Positions 4,661 to 49,992 of a DNA stretch of 64,000 nucleotides are shown piece after piece. Made by a program: the position numbers and the translations under genes. The stretch is taken from the NCBI GenBank assembly GCA_006247105.1, contig CM016926.1, forward strand, positions 682,001 to 746,000, given 5' to 3'. Below the pieces are notes generated by a model. It saw only the letters and a list, made by a program, of their open reading frames with translations. It made no database searches and was not told where the DNA came from. The DNA comes from Giardia muris. Its lineage: Eukaryota > Fornicata > Diplomonadida > Hexamitidae. The first letter of the stretch is position 1, and the number at the start of each line of letters is the position of its first letter.

Positions 4661-4760
4661 AAGAACTGCATGGACTGCAGCCTGCCTTAAGAATGCATCT
4701 GAAGTGATATATTCCTTTCAGGTTGAGGACCGACTTTAGTAATTGAGGAGAAGAAAAAAT

Positions 4761-6332
4761 ATGCCGGAGACCGCGTTGATAGTTGCGGCGGCCCATGGAG
4801 ATGCTCATGCGGTTCGCAAGAACATTGGGGAGGCAAGAAAAAAGTATCGGGGTCTTACTGCTCTTATGTACGCCACGAAGAGAGGACACATTGAGTGTGT
4901 CCGAATACTTGCAAGGCATGAGGCAAAGCTGCTTAGCGACAACCACCATAGTGCACTGCACTTGGCGGCTCAGTATGGATATGCCACAATTGTCGAGCTT
5001 CTTACTCCATTAGAAGCGGGGATACGATCGCAGGAGGGCTGGACGGCCCTGATGTATGCCGTAGCGAATGGGAATCTGGAGTGTATCAAGCACCTCCTGG
5101 CACCAGAGGCAAGAATACAAGATAAAGATGGTCGGACGGCACTCATGCATGCAATCAGCCGGAATAGAGTAGGTTGTGCCCAGGAGCTCCTTTGTGAGGC
5201 GGGAATCCAAGCAAATAACGGGCTAACCGCTCTGATGCTAGCGTCGCGCTATAATATGCAGACCTTGATCGAATTGCTTCTCCCTTATGAACGAGAATTA
5301 CGGGATTCTGATGGGCATAGTGCGTCATGGTACGCCCTAGCAAATATCGAAAAGAGTAGCAGTCAAACGACGTGGAAGTCTTCTCAAGACCAGGACCAAG
5401 ACCAAGACGGGACATTGAAGTCATCGTTGACATCGTTATCTAAGAAGCACCTTGCCACTGGGCTTGAAAATGTAGAGAAAGATTGTACAAAACTAATGGT
5501 TGCAGCCAAGCAAGGAGATATCGAACAGGTCCGAATTCTTAAAGAACAAGAGCTTCGACTTCAAACTCAAGATGGGTGGACCGCCTTGATGTTTGCCGCA
5601 CAGTATGGGCATATTGGGTGCGTAAAGCTTCTTCTTGACGAGGCCGACCTTGAGAACTCCCAAGGAGAGACTGCGCTCGACGTTGCAGAGCTTGCTTGCG
5701 GTTCACAAGAATTCATCAAGCGTTGTATTAGGTGTGCAAGGATTATTAGGGAGCATACCTCTTCTCAGAAAAGGAGTCTTATCACTCATCTCGATAACGC
5801 CTTGACAGACCTAATTCGGGCGCGAGCCGCGCTTGAAACGTTCTCCCCTACAGGTCTGGTACACGAAGTCGATTGCGATATCTCCTCTTTCATCTCGACA
5901 TTGGAGGCGTTGCAACGGAAGGCTGTACAATTAACGGAGAGCAAGGCTACGACGTCTCATAATCAATTCGCCAATCTTCTTGTGGAAAGTCAACAAAAGA
6001 TCACAGCACTTACTGAGGAACTAGAACAGCAACGTCGAGAGCTACAGGAACTTACACGTATGCCTCCAGAGATCCAAAGCGCGAATGAATACACACCGGG
6101 TGAGCTCAACACTTTGCGCGAGACGTTATCTGCTTCTCTGCGTACAGTGACTACGGCTCAAGCGGTCTTTCGAGCCAACGTCTGTATCATTTGTCACTCG
6201 GCTACAAAGAGCATTCTTTTCCAACCATGTACTCATCTTTGTGCTTGTGAGGAATGTGGAAAAGACCTTCCTGGAAAGCCTTGTCCTATTTGCAAGACGA
6301 TAATCAGTTCAGTACGAAAGGTTTATCTTTGA
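4761..6332 (+). CDS. Ankyrin-repeat protein with C-terminal RING finger
   Basis: A 523-residue protein. About eight ankyrin repeats with the core TALM-AA/GH-EC-LL fill residues 20-320, interrupted near 205-240 by a Ser/Gln/Asp-rich stretch containing repeated DQ pairs. A coiled coil (about 395-440, QQKITALTEELEQQRREL) follows. The C-terminus carries a C3HC4-type RING, CIIC...PCTHLCACEEC...CPIC (about 475-511). This suggests an E3 ubiquitin ligase whose ankyrins choose the target; activity is inferred. The ATG at 4761 is preferred over the upstream in-frame TTG at 4743 because an A-rich run lies just before it. It is close in layout to the 815-residue ankyrin-RING protein encoded at 12076-14523. 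Confidence 0.9.
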   Translation: MPETALIVAAAHGDAHAVRKNIGEARKKYRGLTALMYATKRGHIECVRILARHEAKLLSDNHHSALHLAAQYGYATIVELLTPLEAGIRSQEGWTALMYAVANGNLECIKHLLAPEARIQDKDGRTALMHAISRNRVGCAQELLCEAGIQANNGLTALMLASRYNMQTLIELLLPYERELRDSDGHSASWYALANIEKSSSQTTWKSSQDQDQDQDGTLKSSLTSLSKKHLATGLENVEKDCTKLMVAAKQGDIEQVRILKEQELRLQTQDGWTALMFAAQYGHIGCVKLLLDEADLENSQGETALDVAELACGSQEFIKRCIRCARIIREHTSSQKRSLITHLDNALTDLIRARAALETFSPTGLVHEVDCDISSFISTLEALQRKAVQLTESKATTSHNQFANLLVESQQKITALTEELEQQRRELQELTRMPPEIQSANEYTPGELNTLRETLSASLRTVTTAQAVFRANVCIICHSATKSILFQPCTHLCACEECGKDLPGKPCPICKTIISSVRKVYL

Positions 6333-12075: not shown

Positions 12076-14523
12076 TTACCTCAAAGACACACTATCAGCC
12101 GTACTGGAGGCGGTGACTAGCGTATTGCATGACCCCACGGAGCCCTCGACGCTGGGTGACCATGACGAGACCGAGAGCGGCCGATCAGAGTCGGAGATCT
12201 CGTTGGTATGTACCATCTCCCGAATCCCCTTGCGGCAGTACGGGCACGTCCCGTCAAGGTACCCGAGACAGTGTGCACACATCACCATATGGAGACATGG
12301 GGTGAAGACCACCGATGGACGCGCATCCATACAGATGATACACTGACAAGCTAAAGGATCCACCCCTTCATCAGAGAGCTCGACAAGTAGCTCGTTGAAG
12401 AGATCAATAGCCCGACTTGCTCGCATAGTCTGGTCCTCACCAAGAAGCTCAGAACCGTCTGTTATTAACGAGGCAGCAAGGTCGAATGCCATGCGAAGCC
12501 GATCTCGATCGTCACCCTCTTCAACCATCTCGAAGAAGAAGCGTTCCAGTCGCTCTATCAACGACGAGTACACACAGGCAGCATACGAAGAATTGCGCAA
12601 GAGTGAAGGAAGTGTCAACTCTATCAAGGCCTCAATCACCTCTCCACCGCTGTGGCTCATGGCGTAAAAGTATGGGCTCTGATGCTCATTGTCCATGGAT
12701 ATCCCCAACTCTGAGATCAAGTATGGGAGCATCTGCACATTCCCAATCTTGCAGGCCAGGCTCAGGGCGGTTAATCCGGCATCTGACCGAAGCCCACATT
12801 CCTGGGTGGCAAGTTGCCGCACACACTCGACGTGCCCGTGCTTGACCGCATGCATCAGCGCGGTTTGTCCTTCCATGTCTTGCACTCGTTTCTCATGCAT
12901 GAGCTCTGGAAGACAGTTGGCGTGCCCACGCCGGGCGGCACGCATGAGTGCAGTCTGGCCCGTTGAATCCTGTAAGCACTGCTCCGAAGTCAAGAGACGA
13001 ACACAGGCGTGAAACCCATTCTCTGCAGCGAGCATGAGCGCAGTTGTCCCGTCCTTCCTTTGCATTCTGGCCTCAAAACGTCGGAGAATGGTGATGCAAC
13101 CATAATTTCCATCCTGAGCGGCAAGCATCAATGCGGTGCGTCCATCTTCGTCCTGGAACCCCGCCTCTGTTAAAAGAGGTTCCAAGCAGCCCATCCGATC
13201 AGCGACAGCGGCATACATCAATGCTGTCCGGCCCGTATGTGTTGTGAGCCCTCGTTCATCCAGAAGCTTATCGACGCATGCCCTATGGCCGGTATAAGCG
13301 GCAAAGACCAAGGCAGTTCGACCTTCAGAGTCTTGAAGGCTGACTTCTCGCTCGAGCAGCTGTATGACGCAGTCCAAATGGCCATACTGTGCGGCGGCCA
13401 TCAATGCCGTCCGCGACTCGTTGGGGCGTAGTTTGGTGGAGCGCATGAGGAGGGAAACGCAGTTTGTGAACCCATTGCGCGCGGCCTTCACGAGAACCTT
13501 GTACGAGTATTTTGCTTTTGGAGCTTTCTGAAGGATGGCCTCGGCGCATTCTGGATGTAAAGCACTAATGGCTTGAGCGAGGGCATGTTGGAGTAGCTTC
13601 CGGTCCAATCTGGACTTGAGAAGGAACTGAACGCAAGGATAATGGCCCTGGGATGCCGCAATACTAAGCGCCGTATCATCGCTTGTTGTCCGTCTTCGCC
13701 CTTGTTTCGCTACGAGAGCTTGAATACAACCCAGGTGGCCCTCGTGTGCTGCATACATGATCGCATACGACCCGTTTCGCACTCGTCCCTGAGCCTTTGG
13801 AAGGAGGAACTGGACTGCCTCTGTATTTCCATGGGCGGCGGCAAGGGTCAATGCGAAGGTGCAGTACTTCTTTTTGTCCTGAACTGTCGGTAAGATGACC
13901 TTCAATGCAGAAGTATCGTTTGTCAAGGCTGCCCGTAGGAGCTGGTGTACTGAGTCAGCCAAATCTGTGAGGCCGTCAAGAAGGGCGATTACACACTCGA
14001 TTTGATGGAGTTCAAAGGCTAATTCGATAAGCTGATAACACTCGTCTTTAGTCCTAATTTCACCCACAAGATCCGGGATACAATGTGCATGTCCCTTCCT
14101 TATGGCACAAAGGAGTGCGGTATCGCCTATAATGTTCTGTAACCCAAGTTCGGATTGCAAAAGGGGAAGACATTCTCGGTACCCGTTCTCCGTCGCGTAC
14201 ATGAGGGCCGTATTGCCGAAGATATCCTGCAGTCCTTGGAGCTGTTGTAGTGGCGGGATTAAATCCGCATACCCAAGCTCGGCGGCAAGCATCAAGGCCG
14301 TATGGCCGAAGAGATCTGTGATATGCATGTCTTCCAGCCGAGTCTCCACGCCCTGGAGGTTATGGAGCAAGATGGCACCGAAGAGTGTCGAGATCGACAT
14401 CGATTGCAAGTCATCGCCATCCTCAACCTCATCCTGGAGGGCGTTCTCCACGATCACGAGGGACCCCATTATGATGTCTCTGATCGAGCCTGTTGAGGGA
14501 CTAAGGTGGTTCCATGGAGACAT
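12076..14523 (-). CDS. Long ankyrin-repeat protein with C-terminal RING finger
   Basis: An 815-residue protein with about 16 ankyrin repeats over residues 45-590 (motifs such as RTALMLAAQDGN and QTALMRAARRGH). A helical region (about 600-700) is followed by a RING finger at about 728-763: CIIC...PCLHMVMCAHC...CPYC, C3HC4-like. A Ser-rich tail of about 50 residues ends the protein. It is probably a substrate-binding E3 ligase, inferred from the architecture shared with the protein encoded at 4761-6332. Start context ATAAAATG is good. The next gene begins 3 bp after its stop, so the two may share regulatory sequence or be co-transcribed. Confidence 0.9.
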   Translation of the reverse strand: MSPWNHLSPSTGSIRDIIMGSLVIVENALQDEVEDGDDLQSMSISTLFGAILLHNLQGVETRLEDMHITDLFGHTALMLAAELGYADLIPPLQQLQGLQDIFGNTALMYATENGYRECLPLLQSELGLQNIIGDTALLCAIRKGHAHCIPDLVGEIRTKDECYQLIELAFELHQIECVIALLDGLTDLADSVHQLLRAALTNDTSALKVILPTVQDKKKYCTFALTLAAAHGNTEAVQFLLPKAQGRVRNGSYAIMYAAHEGHLGCIQALVAKQGRRRTTSDDTALSIAASQGHYPCVQFLLKSRLDRKLLQHALAQAISALHPECAEAILQKAPKAKYSYKVLVKAARNGFTNCVSLLMRSTKLRPNESRTALMAAAQYGHLDCVIQLLEREVSLQDSEGRTALVFAAYTGHRACVDKLLDERGLTTHTGRTALMYAAVADRMGCLEPLLTEAGFQDEDGRTALMLAAQDGNYGCITILRRFEARMQRKDGTTALMLAAENGFHACVRLLTSEQCLQDSTGQTALMRAARRGHANCLPELMHEKRVQDMEGQTALMHAVKHGHVECVRQLATQECGLRSDAGLTALSLACKIGNVQMLPYLISELGISMDNEHQSPYFYAMSHSGGEVIEALIELTLPSLLRNSSYAACVYSSLIERLERFFFEMVEEGDDRDRLRMAFDLAASLITDGSELLGEDQTMRASRAIDLFNELLVELSDEGVDPLACQCIICMDARPSVVFTPCLHMVMCAHCLGYLDGTCPYCRKGIREMVHTNEISDSDRPLSVSSWSPSVEGSVGSCNTLVTASSTADSVSLR

Positions 14524-36203: not shown

Positions 36204-36422
36204 ATGAGTAAGGATTGGCTTGGACAAGAGTTGAGGATTACTACCCGTGACGCCTGCGTCTTCGTGGGCCATCTTTCGGCCCTGGAGGCCGATGGGTCTG
36301 CAGTCCTCGAGACCGTCACTCAAACCATTCAGGATGGCCCTACAGATGCCATCTCAACGGTTCGAAGGCCTCATATCTACATCAAGGGAGAGGACATCTC
36401 CATGGTCGAGACTCGGAAGTAG
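36204..36422 (+). CDS. LSm-fold small protein (NAA38/LSMD1-like)
   Basis: A 72-residue protein. The pattern LGQELRITTRDACVFVGHLSALEADGSAVLETV then PHIYIKGEDISMVE follows the Sm1 and Sm2 strands of an LSm domain. Its short length and the loss of the Sm2 IRG-type motif (here IKGEDI) make it a divergent member. NAA38/Mak31, an accessory subunit of N-terminal acetyltransferase C, is a fair candidate; a spliceosomal or decay LSm is less likely. It lies 14 bp upstream of a NOT2-like gene on the same strand, with AGTAAA in the spacer. Confidence 0.65.
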   Translation: MSKDWLGQELRITTRDACVFVGHLSALEADGSAVLETVTQTIQDGPTDAISTVRRPHIYIKGEDISMVETRK

Positions 36423-36436: not shown

Positions 36437-36952
36437 ATGAGACAACATTCATCCGGGCCATTGATCACCATTCGTGCGGCACCAGTTCCGACACCAACTC
36501 AAGAGCATCTCCCGGAGGAGAAGGAGATCTTTACCCCACAGGAGTGTCGTCATAAGCCCCTTTATGCCACCCTACCCTGCATTTATTCTCGACAGGAACC
36601 TGAAGTTCGTTGGCCTCCGGTACATACGAACACGTATTGTTTGGATACTTATGAGCGTCCCACCCCGTGTGGGCGCAGAAGGCTTTCCACGCTAGCGGGC
36701 GCTGATGATGATACGCTCCTTTTTATGTGGCATAATTTATCAGGAACTCAGGAGCAGGAACTTGCTGGACGTATTTTAGGGGAACGGGGCTGGGTTTTGG
36801 AACCTGAGTCACACCTCTGGTATAGAAGTGGTGCGGGGACGTATCAGTATTACGAACCTATGCAAAGCGAGACACGACAGGCGAGCAACTTACCCCCAGC
36901 CTTGGTAAGCCAAGAACCGTCACGATACCCCTTCCTGACGCTCCTCCTCTAA
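36437..36952 (+). CDS. Minimal NOT2-type subunit of the CCR4-NOT deadenylase complex
   Basis: A 171-residue protein consisting of little more than a NOT2/3/5 C-terminal box (about 82-142). LSTLAGADDDTLLFMWHN then QEQELAGRILGERGWVLEPESHLWYR matches the family pattern of a DTLF-YxFY helix followed by Q-AA-EL-xRxWxYH-xxxxW. The YCLDTYERPTP segment before it fits the linker preceding the box. Typical NOT2 proteins are longer and have an N-terminal NOT1-binding arm; here only about 60 residues remain. It would act as scaffold in mRNA deadenylation and repression. The assignment is from motif pattern and should be checked by profile search. Confidence 0.65.
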   Translation: MRQHSSGPLITIRAAPVPTPTQEHLPEEKEIFTPQECRHKPLYATLPCIYSRQEPEVRWPPVHTNTYCLDTYERPTPCGRRRLSTLAGADDDTLLFMWHNLSGTQEQELAGRILGERGWVLEPESHLWYRSGAGTYQYYEPMQSETRQASNLPPALVSQEPSRYPFLTLLL

Positions 36953-36959
36953 TGACTCG

Positions 36960-38372
36960 TTATGTACTTGACCCGAAGATGGTTAAGCCTTGGTCTCCTC
37001 GACACCCAAGACCAGCGTGCTCGTATTCTTCCGCATGTGTGGCACTGACGAATTGTAGACGGCACCCTATCCCACATAAGCATCGTGGTCGATCTCTAAA
37101 GGGTTCCGGTAACATCGTAGTTGCCAGACGTCCGCGATAGAACGTGCAACAAGCATTCACGACGAAAGGGAGACAACGATAACAGCACATCGTACTTAGA
37201 CTGATATGGTGTTCCGCCTCGACAACTGGATAGAAAGGTAAGGTGAATTTCGCCAGTAATTCCTTGGTGAAGCGTTCCCAAAGGACTCGTGTGTATCTGT
37301 CTCCATATAGCGCCTCCAAGACCTTGACCTCTTCCCGATTTCCAGCTAGGTCTGACAGCTTCCCAACAATATGGTCCACATCATCAGGAGTCCATAACCC
37401 AATTGGTCTACAAAGACGTGCACACTTACTACCATTAAGCTCATACGCTATCGGAGTCGAAGCTGAAGAGTCCTTGGTTCGTCCCTTCTTCGAGTTTGGC
37501 GCCAAACACGAACAGAAGGCTCGTGCACATACCGTGCAACGAAATTCTGGAGGTACATCCTGCTCAACAAAAAGGCGTCTAAGAAGAGTGAAAAGATCAA
37601 TGGTCTCATCACTGCGACCTCGTTCCATGTACTCCGGTAACATGTATGAACCATCAGATCTACCCTCTAAGCTTGTACCGAGATGACCCATATGAGTCTC
37701 AGGGTTGAGCGGAAGGCTGGTATTACAAACCGTACATGAGGTGCTTGAGGAATCCCCACAAATCTCATTTGGAGTAGTGGCCAGAAAGGCAGCTGCTGTT
37801 CGTTGCAATGCACGATTACTAAAGATCGATTGCTCATATCGTATTCCTTGCTCGACTAGAGTACAGATGGGACAAATGGCTGTCTTCGGTACATCGGAGT
37901 GAGAGGGACTAACGGGTATCTCCACAGAGATGAGATGAGGAAGGAAAAGACATGCTCGGCAAACACTGTGCCCACAATCGGCGAAGCTGTATGGATCATG
38001 TAAAATAGAGGTGCAGACCGGGCATTGTAATGACGAACGTAACGACCGTTGGCAGCTTTCAACGAGGCCATAAGGGACTGACTCACCAAGAAGATGATTG
38101 GAAAATGCTAAAAACCTCTTCCGAGCTGGTTCAAGTTCCTCGGCTACGTTCTCAAAAAGGTGTTCTTCCTCCTCATTCTTAGGAGTCGGCAGCTCCTGAT
38201 CGTTATCGGCATCAATTGCGTCGCATAGGAGGTAATGGCTATACTTGATCCGAAGGAACTTGCTCTCGCTCAGGTCTATGACCGGGGGCGCGTGGGAGGA
38301 GCCCGAGTCGCTGGACGTGCTCGACTCCTTCGTTTCGTATGAACTGTCGCTCGAGTTCGAAGCTTCACACAT
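36960..38372 (-). CDS. CHFR-like RING E3 ligase with C-terminal PBZ finger, no FHA domain
   Basis: A 470-residue protein. The N-terminus is acidic and Ser-rich. A RING finger runs from C117 (CPVCTSILHDPYSFADCGHSVC) to about 168 (CPIC), with a long loop between. A Cys-rich region starts at about 280. The last 50 residues contain a poly(ADP-ribose)-binding zinc finger at 428-452: R-x2-C-x2-G-x2-C-x8-H-x3-Y-x-H. RING, Cys-rich domain and PBZ in this order match CHFR, a mitotic checkpoint ligase, but the N-terminal phosphopeptide-binding FHA domain is absent. The PBZ Phe/Tyr after the first Cys is Cys here. It ends 7 bp from the NOT2-like stop, tail to tail. Confidence 0.8.
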   Translation of the reverse strand: MCEASNSSDSSYETKESSTSSDSGSSHAPPVIDLSESKFLRIKYSHYLLCDAIDADNDQELPTPKNEEEEHLFENVAEELEPARKRFLAFSNHLLGESVPYGLVESCQRSLRSSLQCPVCTSILHDPYSFADCGHSVCRACLFLPHLISVEIPVSPSHSDVPKTAICPICTLVEQGIRYEQSIFSNRALQRTAAAFLATTPNEICGDSSSTSCTVCNTSLPLNPETHMGHLGTSLEGRSDGSYMLPEYMERGRSDETIDLFTLLRRLFVEQDVPPEFRCTVCARAFCSCLAPNSKKGRTKDSSASTPIAYELNGSKCARLCRPIGLWTPDDVDHIVGKLSDLAGNREEVKVLEALYGDRYTRVLWERFTKELLAKFTLPFYPVVEAEHHISLSTMCCYRCLPFVVNACCTFYRGRLATTMLPEPFRDRPRCLCGIGCRLQFVSATHAEEYEHAGLGCRGDQGLTIFGSST

Positions 38373-38392
38373 TTTCTTGACGACCCCTCTGA

Positions 38393-39214
38393 ATGGGGGG
38401 TAGCAGGAAAATGTTCCGTAACCGATGCACCACAGCCCTCCTCAACCAACGGAGGATCTGTCGCTACCTCGGCTTTAGCGAGGAATCGTTGGCCGTTGCA
38501 GTCCCTGTCACAGATCAACCGGAACCAGTCTATCAGCTCAACGGCCTCCTCTCCATTGATGAGACCTCGCTCACCGCTCATTTACCCAATGGCTTAAGCT
38601 TCACCTTCACCGCAGCTTGTCAAGTCATCATCACAGCTCTTTTTGGAGTCACTAACTTCGATACGGGCTCTCCTATAGGCTTCAGCTTCATCACTCCTGG
38701 TCAGATCTTCAGCGTGAATAATCATGAGCCTCAAACGTTCACTTCCTTAGCGACGCAAGGAGTGTTAAAGACGACAATTGGGATGATCGTTGCAACCGCC
38801 GTTGGCCAACTGGATGAGTCCTCCCCCTGCAGTCAGTTCTTTATCCTTGATTTACGCCCTCCAGGAAACCCCGAGAAGCCTGACATCATCGCTGTTAGGA
38901 TCCGGGTCGGAAACTCGTTCTTCGACCTGAAACAAATCTATAACACATCCGAGACACCCACAACGATCCGTACCGTCAGCACGGCTCCTCCGATCGCCGC
39001 GTGCGTCATCTGCCTCAGCAAGAAGTGTAGCGCCGTCATTCTTCCTTGCCGTCACATGTGTCTCTGCCGTACTTGTGCCTGCGAGTTCCGGAGGAAGACC
39101 ACCCAATGCCCACTTTGTCGAACGGAAGCATCCGCATTGATCGACATCACTGACATCAATAGCGCCCTCCCACCCAGTACCGCGATGACTATCGCAACCA
39201 GGACTGACGTCTAA
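38393..39214 (+). CDS. Mahogunin/LUL-type RING E3 ligase
   Basis: A 273-residue protein. The C-terminal RING (204-242), CVICLSKKCSAVILPCRHMC, LCRTC and CPLCR, followed by a TEASALIDI tail, is characteristic of MGRN1/RNF157 and plant LUL/LOG2 ligases. The N-terminal 190 residues would correspond to the family's beta-rich domain (about 40-180). The protein begins MGGSRK, so the Gly2 could be myristoylated as in plant members; weak inference. The start is 20 bp from the CHFR-like start on the other strand. The stop overlaps the Vps39-like stop by 4 bp. Confidence 0.8.
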   Translation: MGGSRKMFRNRCTTALLNQRRICRYLGFSEESLAVAVPVTDQPEPVYQLNGLLSIDETSLTAHLPNGLSFTFTAACQVIITALFGVTNFDTGSPIGFSFITPGQIFSVNNHEPQTFTSLATQGVLKTTIGMIVATAVGQLDESSPCSQFFILDLRPPGNPEKPDIIAVRIRVGNSFFDLKQIYNTSETPTTIRTVSTAPPIAACVICLSKKCSAVILPCRHMCLCRTCACEFRRKTTQCPLCRTEASALIDITDINSALPPSTAMTIATRTDV

Positions 39215-44010: not shown

Positions 44011-44252
44011 TCTTTCTTTCTTTCAGCCAAGAACCGTATGAAGCCGACGGCCAAGACGAGGAGGTGTAGAAGGCCCGCTTGCCAGGCTTCCACATGTAAC
44101 TGTTGAGGTGGGTCTGAGTTGACTCCACAGTATAGGACCAAGTCCAGGTCTAAGTGTTGGACATCCGTGCCATGTGCCAGGCGTAAAGCTAGATGTATGA
44201 GCCATCGGACAAGCATTAGGATTGCCCAAGGAAGCAAAAGAACCAGTAGCAT
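44007..44252 (-). CDS. Small two-helix membrane protein
   Basis: An 81-residue protein with a hydrophobic N-terminus (about 1-26, MLLVLLLPWAILMLVRWLIH) and a second hydrophobic helix (about 59-76) ending in a basic ERKKE tail, likely cytosolic. No family is recognised. Its TGA overlaps the ATG of the Vps39-like gene (ATGA). Its ATG is only 4 bp from the PPIP5K ATG on the other strand. The tidy packing at both ends supports it as a real gene. Confidence 0.65.
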   Translation of the reverse strand: MLLVLLLPWAILMLVRWLIHLALRLAHGTDVQHLDLDLVLYCGVNSDPPQQLHVEAWQAGLLHLLVLAVGFIRFLAERKKE

Positions 44253-44259
44253 TTATATG
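44250..44259. promoter_or_regulatory. Divergent start codons 4 bp apart (CATTTATATG)
   Basis: The ATG of the small membrane protein (minus) and of PPIP5K (plus) are separated only by TTAT. Any promoter for either gene must lie inside the other's coding sequence or be this A/T patch itself. Confidence 0.6.
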
Positions 44260-47200
44260 CAGTGCGAGCCATCCCAAAGAATTCGTCTTGGACTCCTTTG
44301 CATGAGCAAGAAGGCGCGGTCCGATCCGATGCAGGAAATTCTTAAGCGGTTGAACCATGACAACCTGATGGAACTGATCTACTTCCCCGATGACATGCTC
44401 TTGAATATGCCGATAGAACAATGGCCGGAGGTCGACGTGGTGATCGGGTTCCATTCAAACGGTTTCCCCCTGAAAAAGGCCATAGCCTACGAGGAGTTAC
44501 GTGGACCATATTCCATTAACTCCTTGAAGGGACAATTGACATTGCTCAGTAGGTTTGAGTCATATAAGAAGATGGCTAGGCATTCCATTCCCCTACCGAG
44601 ACACATTTTAGCATGTCGACGACCACCGCCAGATGAGAAGAGGTGTGAGGCTTGTTGTATGGCTTTGCCTAACGAGCAAGGTTTGAGGTCTGCGGATTCG
44701 ATCCATTGCACCTGTATTTACGAGGACCCTATAGGGTTCATCGACGGCGGTTCCTATGTCGAATACAATGGCGTTCGGATCATGAAACCGTTCCTAGAGA
44801 AGCCTGCAGATAGTGAGGACCACAATATCTGGATTTACTATCCTCCTCCAAGCGCACCAGGGGATAAACCTGAGGGGGTAACCAAACTGTTCCGAAAGGT
44901 GGGTAACTGTTCCTCAGAATTCATTCCAGGAAAGCACAGTATCCGCAGGAACGGTTGTTACATCTATGAAGCCTTCCTTCCGCCACAAGATAATACTGAC
45001 GTGAAGATCTACGCCGTCTTCCCGAATTATATTCTAGCGGAGACTAGAAAAGCACCACATATCGATGGGGTTGTCGTTCGCGATCCAGAGACTAAGAAAG
45101 AGGTAAGAATGTTGACAGAACTGAGCGTGCGTGAGCGTGATATCTCCATGCTGATCTGGCAAACGTTTGGGCAGCGCGTATGTGGCTTCGATTTTGTCCG
45201 TTCCGAGGGGAAAACTGTCGTTTGTGACGTTAACGGCTGGTCTTTCGTCAAGACAAATCCACGCTATTATGATGTCTGTGCACGTATTCTTCGTGAGCTG
45301 AGCATCCAAGCCATAACGCAGAGCCAAAAGGACATCGCACGCGCTTTAAAGTTCCCACGGGATGAGCTTTTGCCAAACGCTCTACATTTCAGCCGAGTGA
45401 CACACCCGAGTGTTGTTTACCCGAAAGGCGGAACGTATTACATTGATAGCACCTATCTCGATATGCTTGACAAGATAACCGAGATGCTAGTCAAACGGCG
45501 GCAGGGCGGTGGGGAGAACAAGTCAACGATCTTCCCAGCAATGAACGATATTCTGTTCACCAGGTATAAGGAGTGTACCCTACGTAGACGTGGTTTTGTT
45601 GGACTGATTCGTTCGGGAGATCGCGTGCCAAAGTTCTGGTATGCGATCACCTCATCAAACCAATGGATTCTGACTTTATTTGCAGGGGTTTCCGATAACG
45701 AGTCGGAATCTTCTGAGATACGCCAACAGTACCGAGAAAAAGGCGTTCGAGACATCATCATCCGTCCAAGTTATACCCCCATGCGTGCCAAGGGAATCTC
45801 AGATACCATTGAAGCCCTCTTGGAACGTAAAGGGATCAATCCTCAGGAGATTCGACGCACCCCCTTCCTCCTCCTACAAAAGCATACCACCTCCGGCCGT
45901 CATTCACGAGTCCCAACAGACTCCGTGGACTTCTTTGAGGAATCAACGGTAACGAAAACTTCTGACGGTCTTTTCCCCACCCCACGGGTTCTGAAGTCAG
46001 CGTTGACATATGACTCCGATGATGAGTTTACAGTAGAAGAGATGGATGCCCTAAAACTGTGCTACGCCCTCTTCTCGAACGAGATCGCAGGCGTTCGAAT
46101 CAAGCTTCGGCGACAAGATCGCACAACTACCACTTTCAAGCTTAGCATTTCATGGGGTGGTTACCTCACCGTCTCCGGCTTACGCCAGGCCTTTTCATTG
46201 GGTAAGATGCTACGTCGGATGTTCATTCCATATACCCCTGACCGCCTCGTAGAACCCGAGGAATCCGATGGTGACTGTGTTGAGGGTTACGCTTCCACTC
46301 CCAGTTCTGATCTCTTAGAGAAGACCCAGCTCCTTTTACCCAGTGATGACGTCCCCACCTTAAGTGCTGAGTCTCCAATGGAACAGAAGAGTCGAAGCGA
46401 TCTTTATAAGAGAACCTTAAGAGTCTTCTTCTCTGGAGAGCGTAGAGATCGTCATTGCGCCCTTGGCGTGCTGATTGGGATCTGTACCGACGATTCGAAG
46501 GAGATCGACGATATCTTCCCACAACTACGAGAATATCGAAGCTACGAGCTCTCCCCTAACATAATGAGCTATCTATCAGAGCGTTATCAGCCTGATCAAC
46601 CAATCCCATACATTAACCTCTCCATCTCACAATTACGACAGATGCTCGTCTATGAAGATACAATCCTTCATAACGTCCCCAGGCCCGTCGAAGAGCTTCT
46701 GGAACGAGAAAAGACGCGTATCAATAAGTATCTGAATGAGCGTTCGACCAAGGAAAACTATCTGACGCTTCCTGTTTTCACTACGGCTGGACGTGGTTCA
46801 ACTAAGCATCTCAGTATCCTTTCCGGAGCCGATAATCTTGATATTGAACGTATTCGAACTGGAGTTGGAAGCACCTGCGCTACCATAGCGATGGGTGATC
46901 TTTATCGGAATCCTGAAACATCCATACGATCTCTCTCTAAGCTATTCGCAACAACCCACACCACCTCATCGGACTCGTGCCAGAGTGCAATGATCGGCTT
47001 TATGCACAAGTCAACAAGCTATTCGAGTCTTCAAGAGGAGATGATTCCTGCTATTCGCTTTGGAACCGGGATTGAAACTGATGAAGATGAGGTTTTGATA
47101 GAAGAGGAGCATCATAACGAATGGTCGGACTCGTCACTCCCTAGTGGCGTGCATCTTCCATCCTCCTCTTACACAGACTCCCATTTGAGTACCTCGCAGC

Positions 47201-49992
47201 TTTCCCATGTGCATTCCTGGGAGACACTTCCGCGCCTACGTTGTTCGACTTGTACTAGTGAGCCACGTTTGAGTTCGGAGATCGACTTGAGGAATCGTAC
47301 AAGCATTAGACAGCACTTCGAGGCCTGTCTGAAAAACGAGCAGTATGCAAATCACATTGAGATGGCGAGTGATATATATGACTTCCTTGAGTCGTTTCTG
47401 GATGAACTCGAGCATATGCACTTCCGTACCGCCCCGAATCTCAGTGTTTCTAGACGGGTGACCTTACACGACGTATCTGCCTCACGCTCCAATACTCCCT
47501 CGGGGCTGTCTACTATCGAGCCTCTCGAGTCAAGGTTTTCCCCGCTATCTATCATTTCCCAAATCAGATATGTTTTGTATGACTTCCGTGTTGGAAACCA
47601 GTACGACTTCTCGGCGATTGTCGCCCTGAATCACAGTATGAGATTCCTTGCGATCCACTTCCCAGAGCTGGCGAGTAATGAGAAGCTCGACCGACTGATC
47701 AAGCTCTTGTCTCGTTACGCCGTGCAGGTCGTCCATACGATCTATGGGATCACAATGAGTAACCAGGCGAACATCAGCTACCAGATCGCAGGGGTTCTGT
47801 TTCAGACCCTCATCGACGATCTCAGTGAGGTTACGACACGTCAACATCCCCAGTACACGCCCACGCTCGATGGGGACGGCACCAATAGCTCTCAGCGTGG
47901 AAGGCACCTCAAAGGACAGCGTTCAGACGTCCCTCTAGAGGACATCATGATGGCAAAGCTATACGTTGGCAGTATTCCATGGATTCATTCAATCCTCAAC
48001 CTCATCACCCTCAACCCAGACTTCTCGGAGTTCCTCATCCATTCACGTGAGGTGACACGCCAATTGTCCTTTGGGGCGAGCCTTAGCTTTGTCCTTTGGG
48101 AATTAGTTAAAACCGATATGGAACCGGCCTTTTTGGTGCAGATCTTCTATTCCAGTGGCGCCAGCGCAGATGTCTTTCAGCATAACGCCTATAACGTGCA
48201 GCCATTGGATCAACCGGAACCGCTCATGTATCCGATACCCCTCTTCTTATTGACACAGTTTGCCGCCAAGATACCAAAGTACAGGAAGCGCCTGGCCTCG
48301 GATGAGCGCCTTTTCTCGATGATCTGCGTCGTCAGACATGCTGATCGTACACCAAAGCAACGCCTTAAGTTCAAGGTGGACCATGACGACCTAGCGCAAC
48401 GAGTCATGAAGCGATTGCGAATCAGCGAGATCGCCCCAACAGATGTGACCTTCCGAGCCGAGGACGCAGAGGAAAGACTTGCCATCATGAAGATCAGTGA
48501 GGAAGTTCAGAATTGGATGACACTTATCAAGGAATGTCAAGGCTCAGCTTCAGTACTTGCAGACCCTGGTGTGCAGAAGCTTGTTGAGAACTTGACCCAG
48601 TTCTTAGTCGTAGTAACCAACCCTCCGCCGGCCTTGAAGGTACAGTTGAAGTTCCCATTTCCTTGGCGTGGGGTTCGAAGGTTTACGTTATTGGCGAAGT
48701 ATGATGGCGTTCTGACGACGATGGGGAGGTTACAGAGCCATCTTTGTGGTAGACTGCTATATCAAACCCTTCTGGATGATTTCTTTGAGCTTGGTGTTGA
48801 GGTCATCCCTGGAAGCTTGAATCGGGTTTATAATCTGTTAAAAGAGAGTAGCGCCTATTGCTCTGATGAACCGCGGGTTCGAACGACTGCTGAGGAGTGT
48901 CTGAAAGAGATTGTGGACAATTATAATCAATTGGCACAAGACTTGCAGTACTCGCAGCTTCTGAATCAAGACGATATCACCATTGAGGAGTTGCCCTTGT
49001 TATCAAAGGTTGACAAGATCGCTCGTGAACTCATCTCAATGGAAAAGGAGACTCTCAACAAGGCACTTACAGAGAAGATTGACCTATCAAACGAGAATCC
49101 AAAGAACTTGCAAGGGTGTCTCTTGGATTTCATTAGAAGCATTCCACATCGTGCATTGGAGGAGCTTGGCGTTCCTTTCACTCGTCTGGAGGAGCTTCGA
49201 AGACTCTTGACGGATCTTGTTATCGGTTATGAAGAATACTTCAGTGATAAGGAGCAGTTCCCAGAAGGCTTCCAGACCGTCTTACAAGACGGTGAGACGA
49301 TCCATTCCATCATTCGGCGAATGCGGTTCATTACGGGAGGCTATTATGACCCAGAAACTCAGTCCTATAACGTCAGCAAGATTGCTGATATCACAGACCT
49401 ATTACGATACGAAATCCTACAACACCATTACATCCTGAACGAGGAATTGCAACGGATTCTCAAGGATGCCTGGGATTCAGTCCGTGTCCTCATTCCTTTC
49501 ACAGCAAGTCAGGAATTTGGTTTGACGGACTTCACGAAGTTCGCCATCGCCTCCTTTATTACCCGGGACTTGTTGAGTACGATTACTGATAACCTTCGAA
49601 CACCGGGTCTTTCCTTTTACTTCACCTCGGAAAGCCATATCCATGGCCTTCTAAACTTATTGCTATGCTCCCCAGGTAGCCCTTGCAAGGTTGATAGAGA
49701 TAGTGTGTCAGGTGTTGACTTCCTTTCACACTTTGTCTTCAAAGGGTATGCAAGAGGAAGTAATGACTTTTGTAGCCGTGTAGAGGTATATTGGAGCCGT
49801 GGGAGTGCTCACTCTCCATATAAGATAGATATGAGTCTTGCCGAAAACGTCATTCGAGTTCAAGCACCCCTCTTGATATCAGATACTCTTTGCATAAAGG
49901 ATTTCGAGGCCATTCTAACTCACAGTCAGAACATCACAAACATGTTACAGAACCGTGCCAATGATAACCTCCCTCTCCTCCCAACCCATTAG
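44257..49992 (+). CDS. VIP1: Diphosphoinositol pentakisphosphate kinase (PPIP5K/Vip1)
   Basis: A 1911-residue dual-domain enzyme that makes inositol pyrophosphates. The N-terminal RimK/ATP-grasp kinase starts at once: RIRLGLLCMSKKARSDPMQEIL, EQWPEVDVVIGFHSNGFPL and LKKAIAYEELRGPYSINSL are family landmarks. CGFDFVRSEGKTVVCDVNGWSFVK (about 305-330) holds the metal-binding core. A long Ser-rich, poorly conserved linker spans about 560-1330. The C-terminal histidine-phosphatase-like domain has RHADRTPKQ (about 1360) and YFTSESHIHGLLNLL, both active-site motifs. The ATG at 44257 is chosen because the reading frame upstream (to 44119) has no family similarity and overlaps the divergent gene. Confidence 0.94.
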   Translation: MQCEPSQRIRLGLLCMSKKARSDPMQEILKRLNHDNLMELIYFPDDMLLNMPIEQWPEVDVVIGFHSNGFPLKKAIAYEELRGPYSINSLKGQLTLLSRFESYKKMARHSIPLPRHILACRRPPPDEKRCEACCMALPNEQGLRSADSIHCTCIYEDPIGFIDGGSYVEYNGVRIMKPFLEKPADSEDHNIWIYYPPPSAPGDKPEGVTKLFRKVGNCSSEFIPGKHSIRRNGCYIYEAFLPPQDNTDVKIYAVFPNYILAETRKAPHIDGVVVRDPETKKEVRMLTELSVRERDISMLIWQTFGQRVCGFDFVRSEGKTVVCDVNGWSFVKTNPRYYDVCARILRELSIQAITQSQKDIARALKFPRDELLPNALHFSRVTHPSVVYPKGGTYYIDSTYLDMLDKITEMLVKRRQGGGENKSTIFPAMNDILFTRYKECTLRRRGFVGLIRSGDRVPKFWYAITSSNQWILTLFAGVSDNESESSEIRQQYREKGVRDIIIRPSYTPMRAKGISDTIEALLERKGINPQEIRRTPFLLLQKHTTSGRHSRVPTDSVDFFEESTVTKTSDGLFPTPRVLKSALTYDSDDEFTVEEMDALKLCYALFSNEIAGVRIKLRRQDRTTTTFKLSISWGGYLTVSGLRQAFSLGKMLRRMFIPYTPDRLVEPEESDGDCVEGYASTPSSDLLEKTQLLLPSDDVPTLSAESPMEQKSRSDLYKRTLRVFFSGERRDRHCALGVLIGICTDDSKEIDDIFPQLREYRSYELSPNIMSYLSERYQPDQPIPYINLSISQLRQMLVYEDTILHNVPRPVEELLEREKTRINKYLNERSTKENYLTLPVFTTAGRGSTKHLSILSGADNLDIERIRTGVGSTCATIAMGDLYRNPETSIRSLSKLFATTHTTSSDSCQSAMIGFMHKSTSYSSLQEEMIPAIRFGTGIETDEDEVLIEEEHHNEWSDSSLPSGVHLPSSSYTDSHLSTSQLSHVHSWETLPRLRCSTCTSEPRLSSEIDLRNRTSIRQHFEACLKNEQYANHIEMASDIYDFLESFLDELEHMHFRTAPNLSVSRRVTLHDVSASRSNTPSGLSTIEPLESRFSPLSIISQIRYVLYDFRVGNQYDFSAIVALNHSMRFLAIHFPELASNEKLDRLIKLLSRYAVQVVHTIYGITMSNQANISYQIAGVLFQTLIDDLSEVTTRQHPQYTPTLDGDGTNSSQRGRHLKGQRSDVPLEDIMMAKLYVGSIPWIHSILNLITLNPDFSEFLIHSREVTRQLSFGASLSFVLWELVKTDMEPAFLVQIFYSSGASADVFQHNAYNVQPLDQPEPLMYPIPLFLLTQFAAKIPKYRKRLASDERLFSMICVVRHADRTPKQRLKFKVDHDDLAQRVMKRLRISEIAPTDVTFRAEDAEERLAIMKISEEVQNWMTLIKECQGSASVLADPGVQKLVENLTQFLVVVTNPPPALKVQLKFPFPWRGVRRFTLLAKYDGVLTTMGRLQSHLCGRLLYQTLLDDFFELGVEVIPGSLNRVYNLLKESSAYCSDEPRVRTTAEECLKEIVDNYNQLAQDLQYSQLLNQDDITIEELPLLSKVDKIARELISMEKETLNKALTEKIDLSNENPKNLQGCLLDFIRSIPHRALEELGVPFTRLEELRRLLTDLVIGYEEYFSDKEQFPEGFQTVLQDGETIHSIIRRMRFITGGYYDPETQSYNVSKIADITDLLRYEILQHHYILNEELQRILKDAWDSVRVLIPFTASQEFGLTDFTKFAIASFITRDLLSTITDNLRTPGLSFYFTSESHIHGLLNLLLCSPGSPCKVDRDSVSGVDFLSHFVFKGYARGSNDFCSRVEVYWSRGSAHSPYKIDMSLAENVIRVQAPLLISDTLCIKDFEAILTHSQNITNMLQNRANDNLPLLPTH

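Follow-up and report, generated by a model that had tools for sequence, protein, structure and literature searches.

A RING protein gene and its neighbours

The window analyzed here is the whole stretch of Giardia muris DNA, 64,000 nucleotides long. On its minus strand lies a gene for a 470-aa protein that carries a RING finger, a cysteine-rich region and, near its C-terminus, a finger resembling the poly(ADP-ribose)-binding zinc finger (PBZ). The gene is single copy in the G. muris genome. Its parts, and the gap that separates it from the next gene, are as follows.

36960..38372, minus strand: whole gene of the 470-aa RING protein (open reading frame, stop codon included)
38037..38372, minus strand: N-terminal region, residues 1-112, with a Ser-rich start (alignments)
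37863..38024, minus strand: RING finger, residues 117-170 (Pfam RING models, 21-23.6 bits)
37131..37556, minus strand: zf-CRD, the CHFR-type cysteine-rich domain, residues 273-414, partly degenerate (PF17979)
37017..37091, minus strand: PBZ-like zinc finger, residues 428-452 (pattern, alignments, profile, shuffles)
36963..37016, minus strand: conserved tail, residues 453-470, with Cys457 and CRGDQ..TIFG (alignment)
38373..38392, no strand: 20-base gap between this gene and its divergent neighbour (ORF map)

The divergent neighbour, 20 bases away at 38393-39214 (+), encodes a second RING protein of 273 aa, with its RING at the C-terminus (PF13920, 44.5 bits). On its 3' side the focal gene has as neighbours the genes for a small LSM protein (36204-36422, +) and a protein with a NOT2/3/5 C-terminal domain (36437-36952, +); these two frames lie head to tail with 14 bases between them.

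All eight expected ligands of the RING are present in the G. muris protein (C117-x2-C120, C133-x-H135-x2-C138-x2-C141 and C167-x2-C170). With the C3HC4 model PF00097 the RING scores 21.0 bits, which is exactly the cut-off, and with the other Pfam RING models it scores below theirs. Just before the RING, LEPARKR aligns with the LEPVKKK/LEPAKKR of several CHFRs, but the stretch is short and we give it little weight.

To find relatives, we searched about 5.8 billion proteins and scored the 7,994 candidates sharing the most words with the query, using a threshold of E <= 0.01. Six proteins passed, including the focal protein itself: P0003, which is 83% identical to it, and four others at 35-36% identity. 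Among the four is P0004, named Giardia duodenalis ('DHA2_11054'), and the close likeness of the remaining three to P0004 suggests that they are also of G. duodenalis type. With residues 270-470 as the query, the search picked up the focal protein and P0003 alone, and no more distant homologue. Compared with the four G. duodenalis-type proteins, the G. muris protein is 46-47% identical over residues 1-112 and 47-50% over 113-146; identity falls to 18-25% over 147-190 and 21-26% over 191-272, and rises through 33-36% over 273-392 and 41-47% over 393-424 to 58-67% over 425-457 and 62-69% over the last residues, 458-470. The PBZ block is thus conserved well above residues 273-392. In the C-terminal half, twelve Cys and His residues are invariant in all six proteins (C279, C282, C396, C397, C400, C409, C431, C433, C437, H446, H452 and C457), and six of the invariant Cys fall in the zf-CRD region.

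The uneven conservation raises the possibility that the protein is a scaffold and not a ligase, its RING having decayed across the genus while only the zinc-rich C-terminus works. The replacement of C167, in the last RING pair, by Glu or Lys in all four G. duodenalis-type proteins would fit such decay, as would the position of the second RING half, together with residues 191-272, among the least conserved parts. However, the eight ligands are intact in both G. muris and P0003, C170 is invariant in all six proteins, and three Pfam RING models match all six. In the alignment the G. duodenalis-type proteins also have a C-x4-C that could be a replacement for the lost pair. We regard a pure scaffold as quite improbable, and ligase activity in the G. 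duodenalis-type proteins as uncertain because of the loss of C167.

The PBZ-like finger and its departures from the consensus

The minus strand at 37017-37091 reads RPRCLCGIGCRLQFVSATHAEEYEH, corresponding to residues 428-452 of the 470-aa protein; the plus strand of the same interval contains two stops. The PBZ consensus is printed in PMC4030884 as [K/R]xxCx[F/Y]GxxCxbbxxxxHxxx[F/Y]xH. The finger matches it at R428-x-x-C431, at Gly434, in the spacings C431-x5-C437 and H446-x5-H452, and at Tyr450, so that it ends in H-x3-Y-x-H as the consensus does. The first-pass annotation had described a fit to PBZ at all four zinc ligands, at the RxxC lead and at the HxxxYxH end, and on the minus strand this is what we find. 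The four putative zinc ligands, the leading Arg and the final Tyr are the same in all six Giardia proteins.

The same comparison turned up four departures absent from that annotation. The consensus aromatic [F/Y] is replaced by Cys433, and this Cys is found in 6/6 Giardia proteins; in the alignment CHFR carries Trp at this position. The gap between the second Cys and the first His is 8 residues, as against 7 both in the consensus as printed and in aligned CHFR. The two 'basic' positions of the consensus are occupied by Leu439 and Gln440, where CHFR has Thr and Gln. Lastly, Gly434 is Ala in one of the six proteins (P0005).

How much such a pattern means depends on how it is written. A strict PBZ pattern, which demands the aromatic and a gap of 6-7, matches nowhere in the window, not even at the focal finger. 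A relaxed one, with the aromatic free and a gap of 6-8, was met just once when the window was read in all six frames (127,996 residues), at the finger itself, and it occurred in none of 200,000 shuffles of the focal protein. The ligand spacing alone is by no means rare: it appeared in 107 of 20,000 shuffles and has two matches in the window. One of these two, a bare C-x5-C ... H-x5-H, runs antisense to the finger, from 37018 onward on the plus strand, apparently by chance.

Similarity to CHFR

CHFR is a human E3 ubiquitin ligase of a cell-division checkpoint that senses poly(ADP-ribose) through its PBZ; structures of its C-terminus are 2xoc, 2xoy, 2xoz and 2xp0. Like the focal protein, it has a RING, then a cysteine-rich domain and, at the C-terminus, a CCHH finger. 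In both, the finger is single, stands at the very end of the protein and has CR-x-Q after its second zinc Cys. The differences are that the focal protein lacks an FHA domain, misses several CRD cysteines and has Cys for the aromatic, that its finger sets Cys and His one residue further apart and is followed by a longer tail, and that the sequence similarity as a whole is weak. We find this similarity to be above chance.

With zf-CRD (PF17979), the full-length protein scores 16.9 bits and its C-terminal 213 residues score 21.4 bits (E 3.3e-4), the latter being the sole Pfam match in that fragment; both scores are below the cut-off of 26.3 bits. The model matches two of the six Giardia C-termini, and human CHFR (P0010) scores 154.5 bits. 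With Pfam PBZ (PF10283) there is no match at E <= 10 in the focal protein, in its C-terminus or in the Giardia relatives. Since human CHFR itself reaches only 21.2 bits with this model, under its 22.7-bit cut-off, the PBZ test does not discriminate, and failure to match it says little against PBZ identity in a protist as divergent as this. The Pfam checks proposed in the first-pass annotation gave a sub-threshold match for the CHFR cysteine-rich profile and none for PBZ.

A single-sequence search of the PDB (177,635 sequences) with the C-terminal 213 residues returned only two entries at E <= 10, both CHFR (E 0.008 and 0.009), and the alignment runs through the PBZ. When the full-length protein was used, RING domains came above CHFR, which had an E of 0.022. 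With a profile built from the six Giardia C-termini, CHFR was missed in the PDB search and an unrelated chain received E 0.0088, suggesting that E values near 0.01 may arise by chance.

We also built a profile of the CHFR CRD and PBZ from eight mammalian CHFRs, taken from the best 120 of 799 CHFR hits, among which all those named to species are mammals; the comparison set is one without protist CHFR. The G. muris C-terminal fragment scores 21.7 bits with this profile and the whole protein 18.1 bits, while shuffling the fragment 20,000 times gave 13.4 bits at best, and none of the 384 other ORFs in the window reaches the score of the whole focal protein. P0003 scores 17.7 bits and the four G. 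duodenalis-type proteins 0.5-7.2 bits. When the CHFR profile is limited to the PBZ, the G. muris fragment scores 12.1 bits (1/20,000 shuffles is higher), P0003 6.6 bits and the G. duodenalis-type proteins -0.9 to 1.0 bits.

Smith-Waterman alignment to CHFR was run for five of the six Giardia proteins (P0006 was omitted), and for two of the six over the PBZ block. For the C-terminus, no shuffle out of 5000 reached the score of G. muris or that of P0003, while 28, 36 and 8 of 5000 reached those of P0004, P0005 and P0007, respectively. For the PBZ block the numbers are 0/5000 for G. muris and 14/5000 for P0004. Among the 227 window frames of at least 80 aa, the focal protein scores 83 and the runner-up 50. 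Profile-profile comparison with CHFR gives P 4.7e-4 and a probability of 32% (27% at full length). Seven residues, R428, C431, C437, R438, Q440, H446 and H452, are identical in the six Giardia proteins and five CHFR proteins.

A contrary reading is that this is not a CHFR but a Giardia-specific RING protein, whose CCHH finger came to look like a PBZ through convergent Cys/His spacing. The frequency of the bare ligand spacing in shuffles would agree with this, as would the G. duodenalis-type proteins barely scoring with CHFR profiles, the Giardia C-terminus profile missing CHFR in the PDB and the lack of a Pfam PBZ match. The full-length zf-CRD score is also about that of a six-frame match elsewhere in the genome (L009, 17 bits, one internal TGA), the one place that the genome-wide search reported for zf-CRD, which we took to be spurious after reading its DNA by eye. 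Convergence does not sit well with the collinearity of the CRD and PBZ with CHFR over some 90-150 residues, seen with several methods, nor with the G. muris score being beyond every shuffle in both the CRD+PBZ profile (0/20,000) and the Smith-Waterman (0/5000) tests. We consider it unlikely. That the focal protein descends from CHFR is likely, though not proven, and the CHFR-like domain order of RING, Cys-rich region and PBZ-like end, as first annotated, is supported by Pfam, PDB, profile and Smith-Waterman comparisons.

Structure prediction added little to this. An AlphaFold2 model from the Giardia sequences alone has a mean pLDDT of 38. Adding five mammalian CHFR rows raised the mean to 50, with residues 428-440 and 447-470 below 50, and this second model is circular because the CHFR rows were supplied. 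In Foldseek, the Giardia-only model had CHFR as the first and second of five matches (E 0.38, with a target TM of 0.36, and E 0.59), and the supplemented model had CHFR 8th-10th and 16th among the best 50 of 97 matches (E 0.032-0.061), with mostly RING domains ahead of it. None of these CHFR matches is significant, and both models are too poor to establish the zinc geometry that the first-pass annotation proposed to look for.

Missing FHA domain, apparent absence of PARPs and possible roles

We found no Pfam match to FHA in the focal protein at E <= 10. All six Giardia proteins align from their start Met, and the missing domain is therefore not the result of a truncated gene model. The stop-to-stop frame of the gene is 493 aa, so only 23 codons are to spare beyond the 470, and the divergent ORF begins at 38393 (+), so that an FHA exon could not be fitted into this frame. 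The earlier remark that the FHA domain is missing is thus borne out, both by Pfam and by the lack of room upstream.

Six FHA loci were found in the G. muris genome, and our RING scan covered two of them, L001 and L002. Both have FHA without a RING match, so a split CHFR, with its FHA on a separate RING protein, is not supported so far. L002 (C3:905207, +) and L003 (C3:915242, -) have identical FHA scores and lie about 10 kb apart in opposite orientation on contig C3, perhaps as an inverted duplication. By eye, another FHA locus, L004, resembles a kinesin.

Citarelli et al. 2010 reported no identifiable PARP genes in Giardia intestinalis and Spironucleus vortens (PMC2964712). Perina et al. 2014, who cite this absence, describe PBZ as having 'coevolved strictly with PARPs' (PMC4245714). 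In the G. muris genome, family searches of low sensitivity gave no match for PARP, PARP_reg, WGR, PARG or ADP-ribosyl-glycohydrolase, and a search with the PARP1 catalytic sequence, run without a control, gave none either. We reject the family searches as proof that PARP is absent, because they also missed the focal locus with PF17979 and PF10283, and control genomes likewise gave no match for PARP, PARP_reg and PARG. The sole macrodomain match found in the genome is L008 1066-2127 (+), which is of note given that no PARP or PARG was found.

These results bear on the earlier suggestion of a stripped-down PAR-sensing ligase. The finger could still read PAR or ADP-ribose and guide a ubiquitin ligase, with an unrecognised ADP-ribosyltransferase or host material as the source. 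It keeps the four ligands, the [K/R]xxC lead and the CR-x-Q of CHFR; variant PBZs can bind PAR, as in CHK1 (review PMC9404506); and the genome does encode one macrodomain protein. However, the survey lists G. intestinalis and S. vortens as having no identifiable PARP genes, neither PARP nor PARG was found in G. muris even if those searches were insensitive, and the consensus aromatic is Cys in all six proteins. For residue-level PAR contacts of the CHFR and APLF PBZ we relied on reviews. PAR sensing by the focal protein is possible but unsupported, and as an account of the finger we think a surviving PAR reader rather unlikely.

We lean, if only slightly, towards a different explanation, in which the protein would derive from CHFR and carry a zinc module that persisted after PAR signalling was gone. 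Its FHA domain would have been lost, and what stayed would be the RING, the cysteine-rich domain and a finger derived from the PBZ. The RING would recruit a ubiquitin-loaded E2, most plausibly in G. muris because all eight RING ligands are present there. The zinc-rich C-terminal block would hold a substrate or partner, serving as a recognition or folding module, and would be under selection for something other than poly(ADP-ribose). The lineage would have lost its PARPs, and the finger would have lost the PBZ aromatic and kept its zinc ligands along with Arg438/Gln440, becoming a former PAR reader uncoupled from PAR. More tentatively, we suggest that the PBZ was kept after PARP loss by being re-aimed at a new ligand, with purifying selection across the genus, which we see as possible rather than probable. 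The new ligand may be a protein or a nucleic acid, or else ADP-ribose that does not come from a PARP.

The fungal FHA-RING ligases Dma1 and Dma2 also have a reduced CHFR-type architecture, in which FHA is kept and no CRD-PBZ is known; the focal protein is the mirror image of these. SNM1A is a nuclease carrying a PBZ. According to a review (PMC9404506), the SNM1A PBZ lacks critical PAR-binding residues and is predicted not to bind PAR. By this description it may parallel the focal finger as a PBZ that does not bind PAR, but it occurs in an organism with PARPs.

Because PBZ is held to coevolve strictly with PARPs, it has been taken to mark PAR metabolism (PMC4245714). If our explanation is correct, a conserved PBZ-like finger in a lineage reported to have no PARP would break the strict co-occurrence of PBZ and PARP, and would show how a protein modification can lose its writer and the reader persist. 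PMC8516963 cites a paper whose title describes Giardia as having no conventional spindle checkpoint. A CHFR-type protein in such an organism would make the age and original role of CHFR testable. Among the matches listed from open-licence PMC papers, there was no earlier description of a CHFR/PBZ module in Giardia.

The explanation would also replace an existing label. In a published inventory of ubiquitin-system genes in G. intestinalis, GL50803_11054 appears as similar to Xenopus RNF168, and the main text of that paper does not mention CHFR, FHA or PBZ (PMC7029713). By its matching number, this gene is presumably that of P0004. The same inventory describes an ankyrin-RING group in G. intestinalis (PMC7029713), which two frames in our window resemble, at 4743-6332 (+) and 12076-14523 (-), both with ankyrin repeats and a C-terminal RING by eye. 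RNF168 resembles the focal protein in having a RING-type zinc finger. It is not known to carry a CRD-PBZ. Elsewhere in the window, a 1957-aa frame at 44119-49992 (+) contains a stretch that we take to resemble the phosphatase-like part of PPIP5K inositol pyrophosphate kinases.
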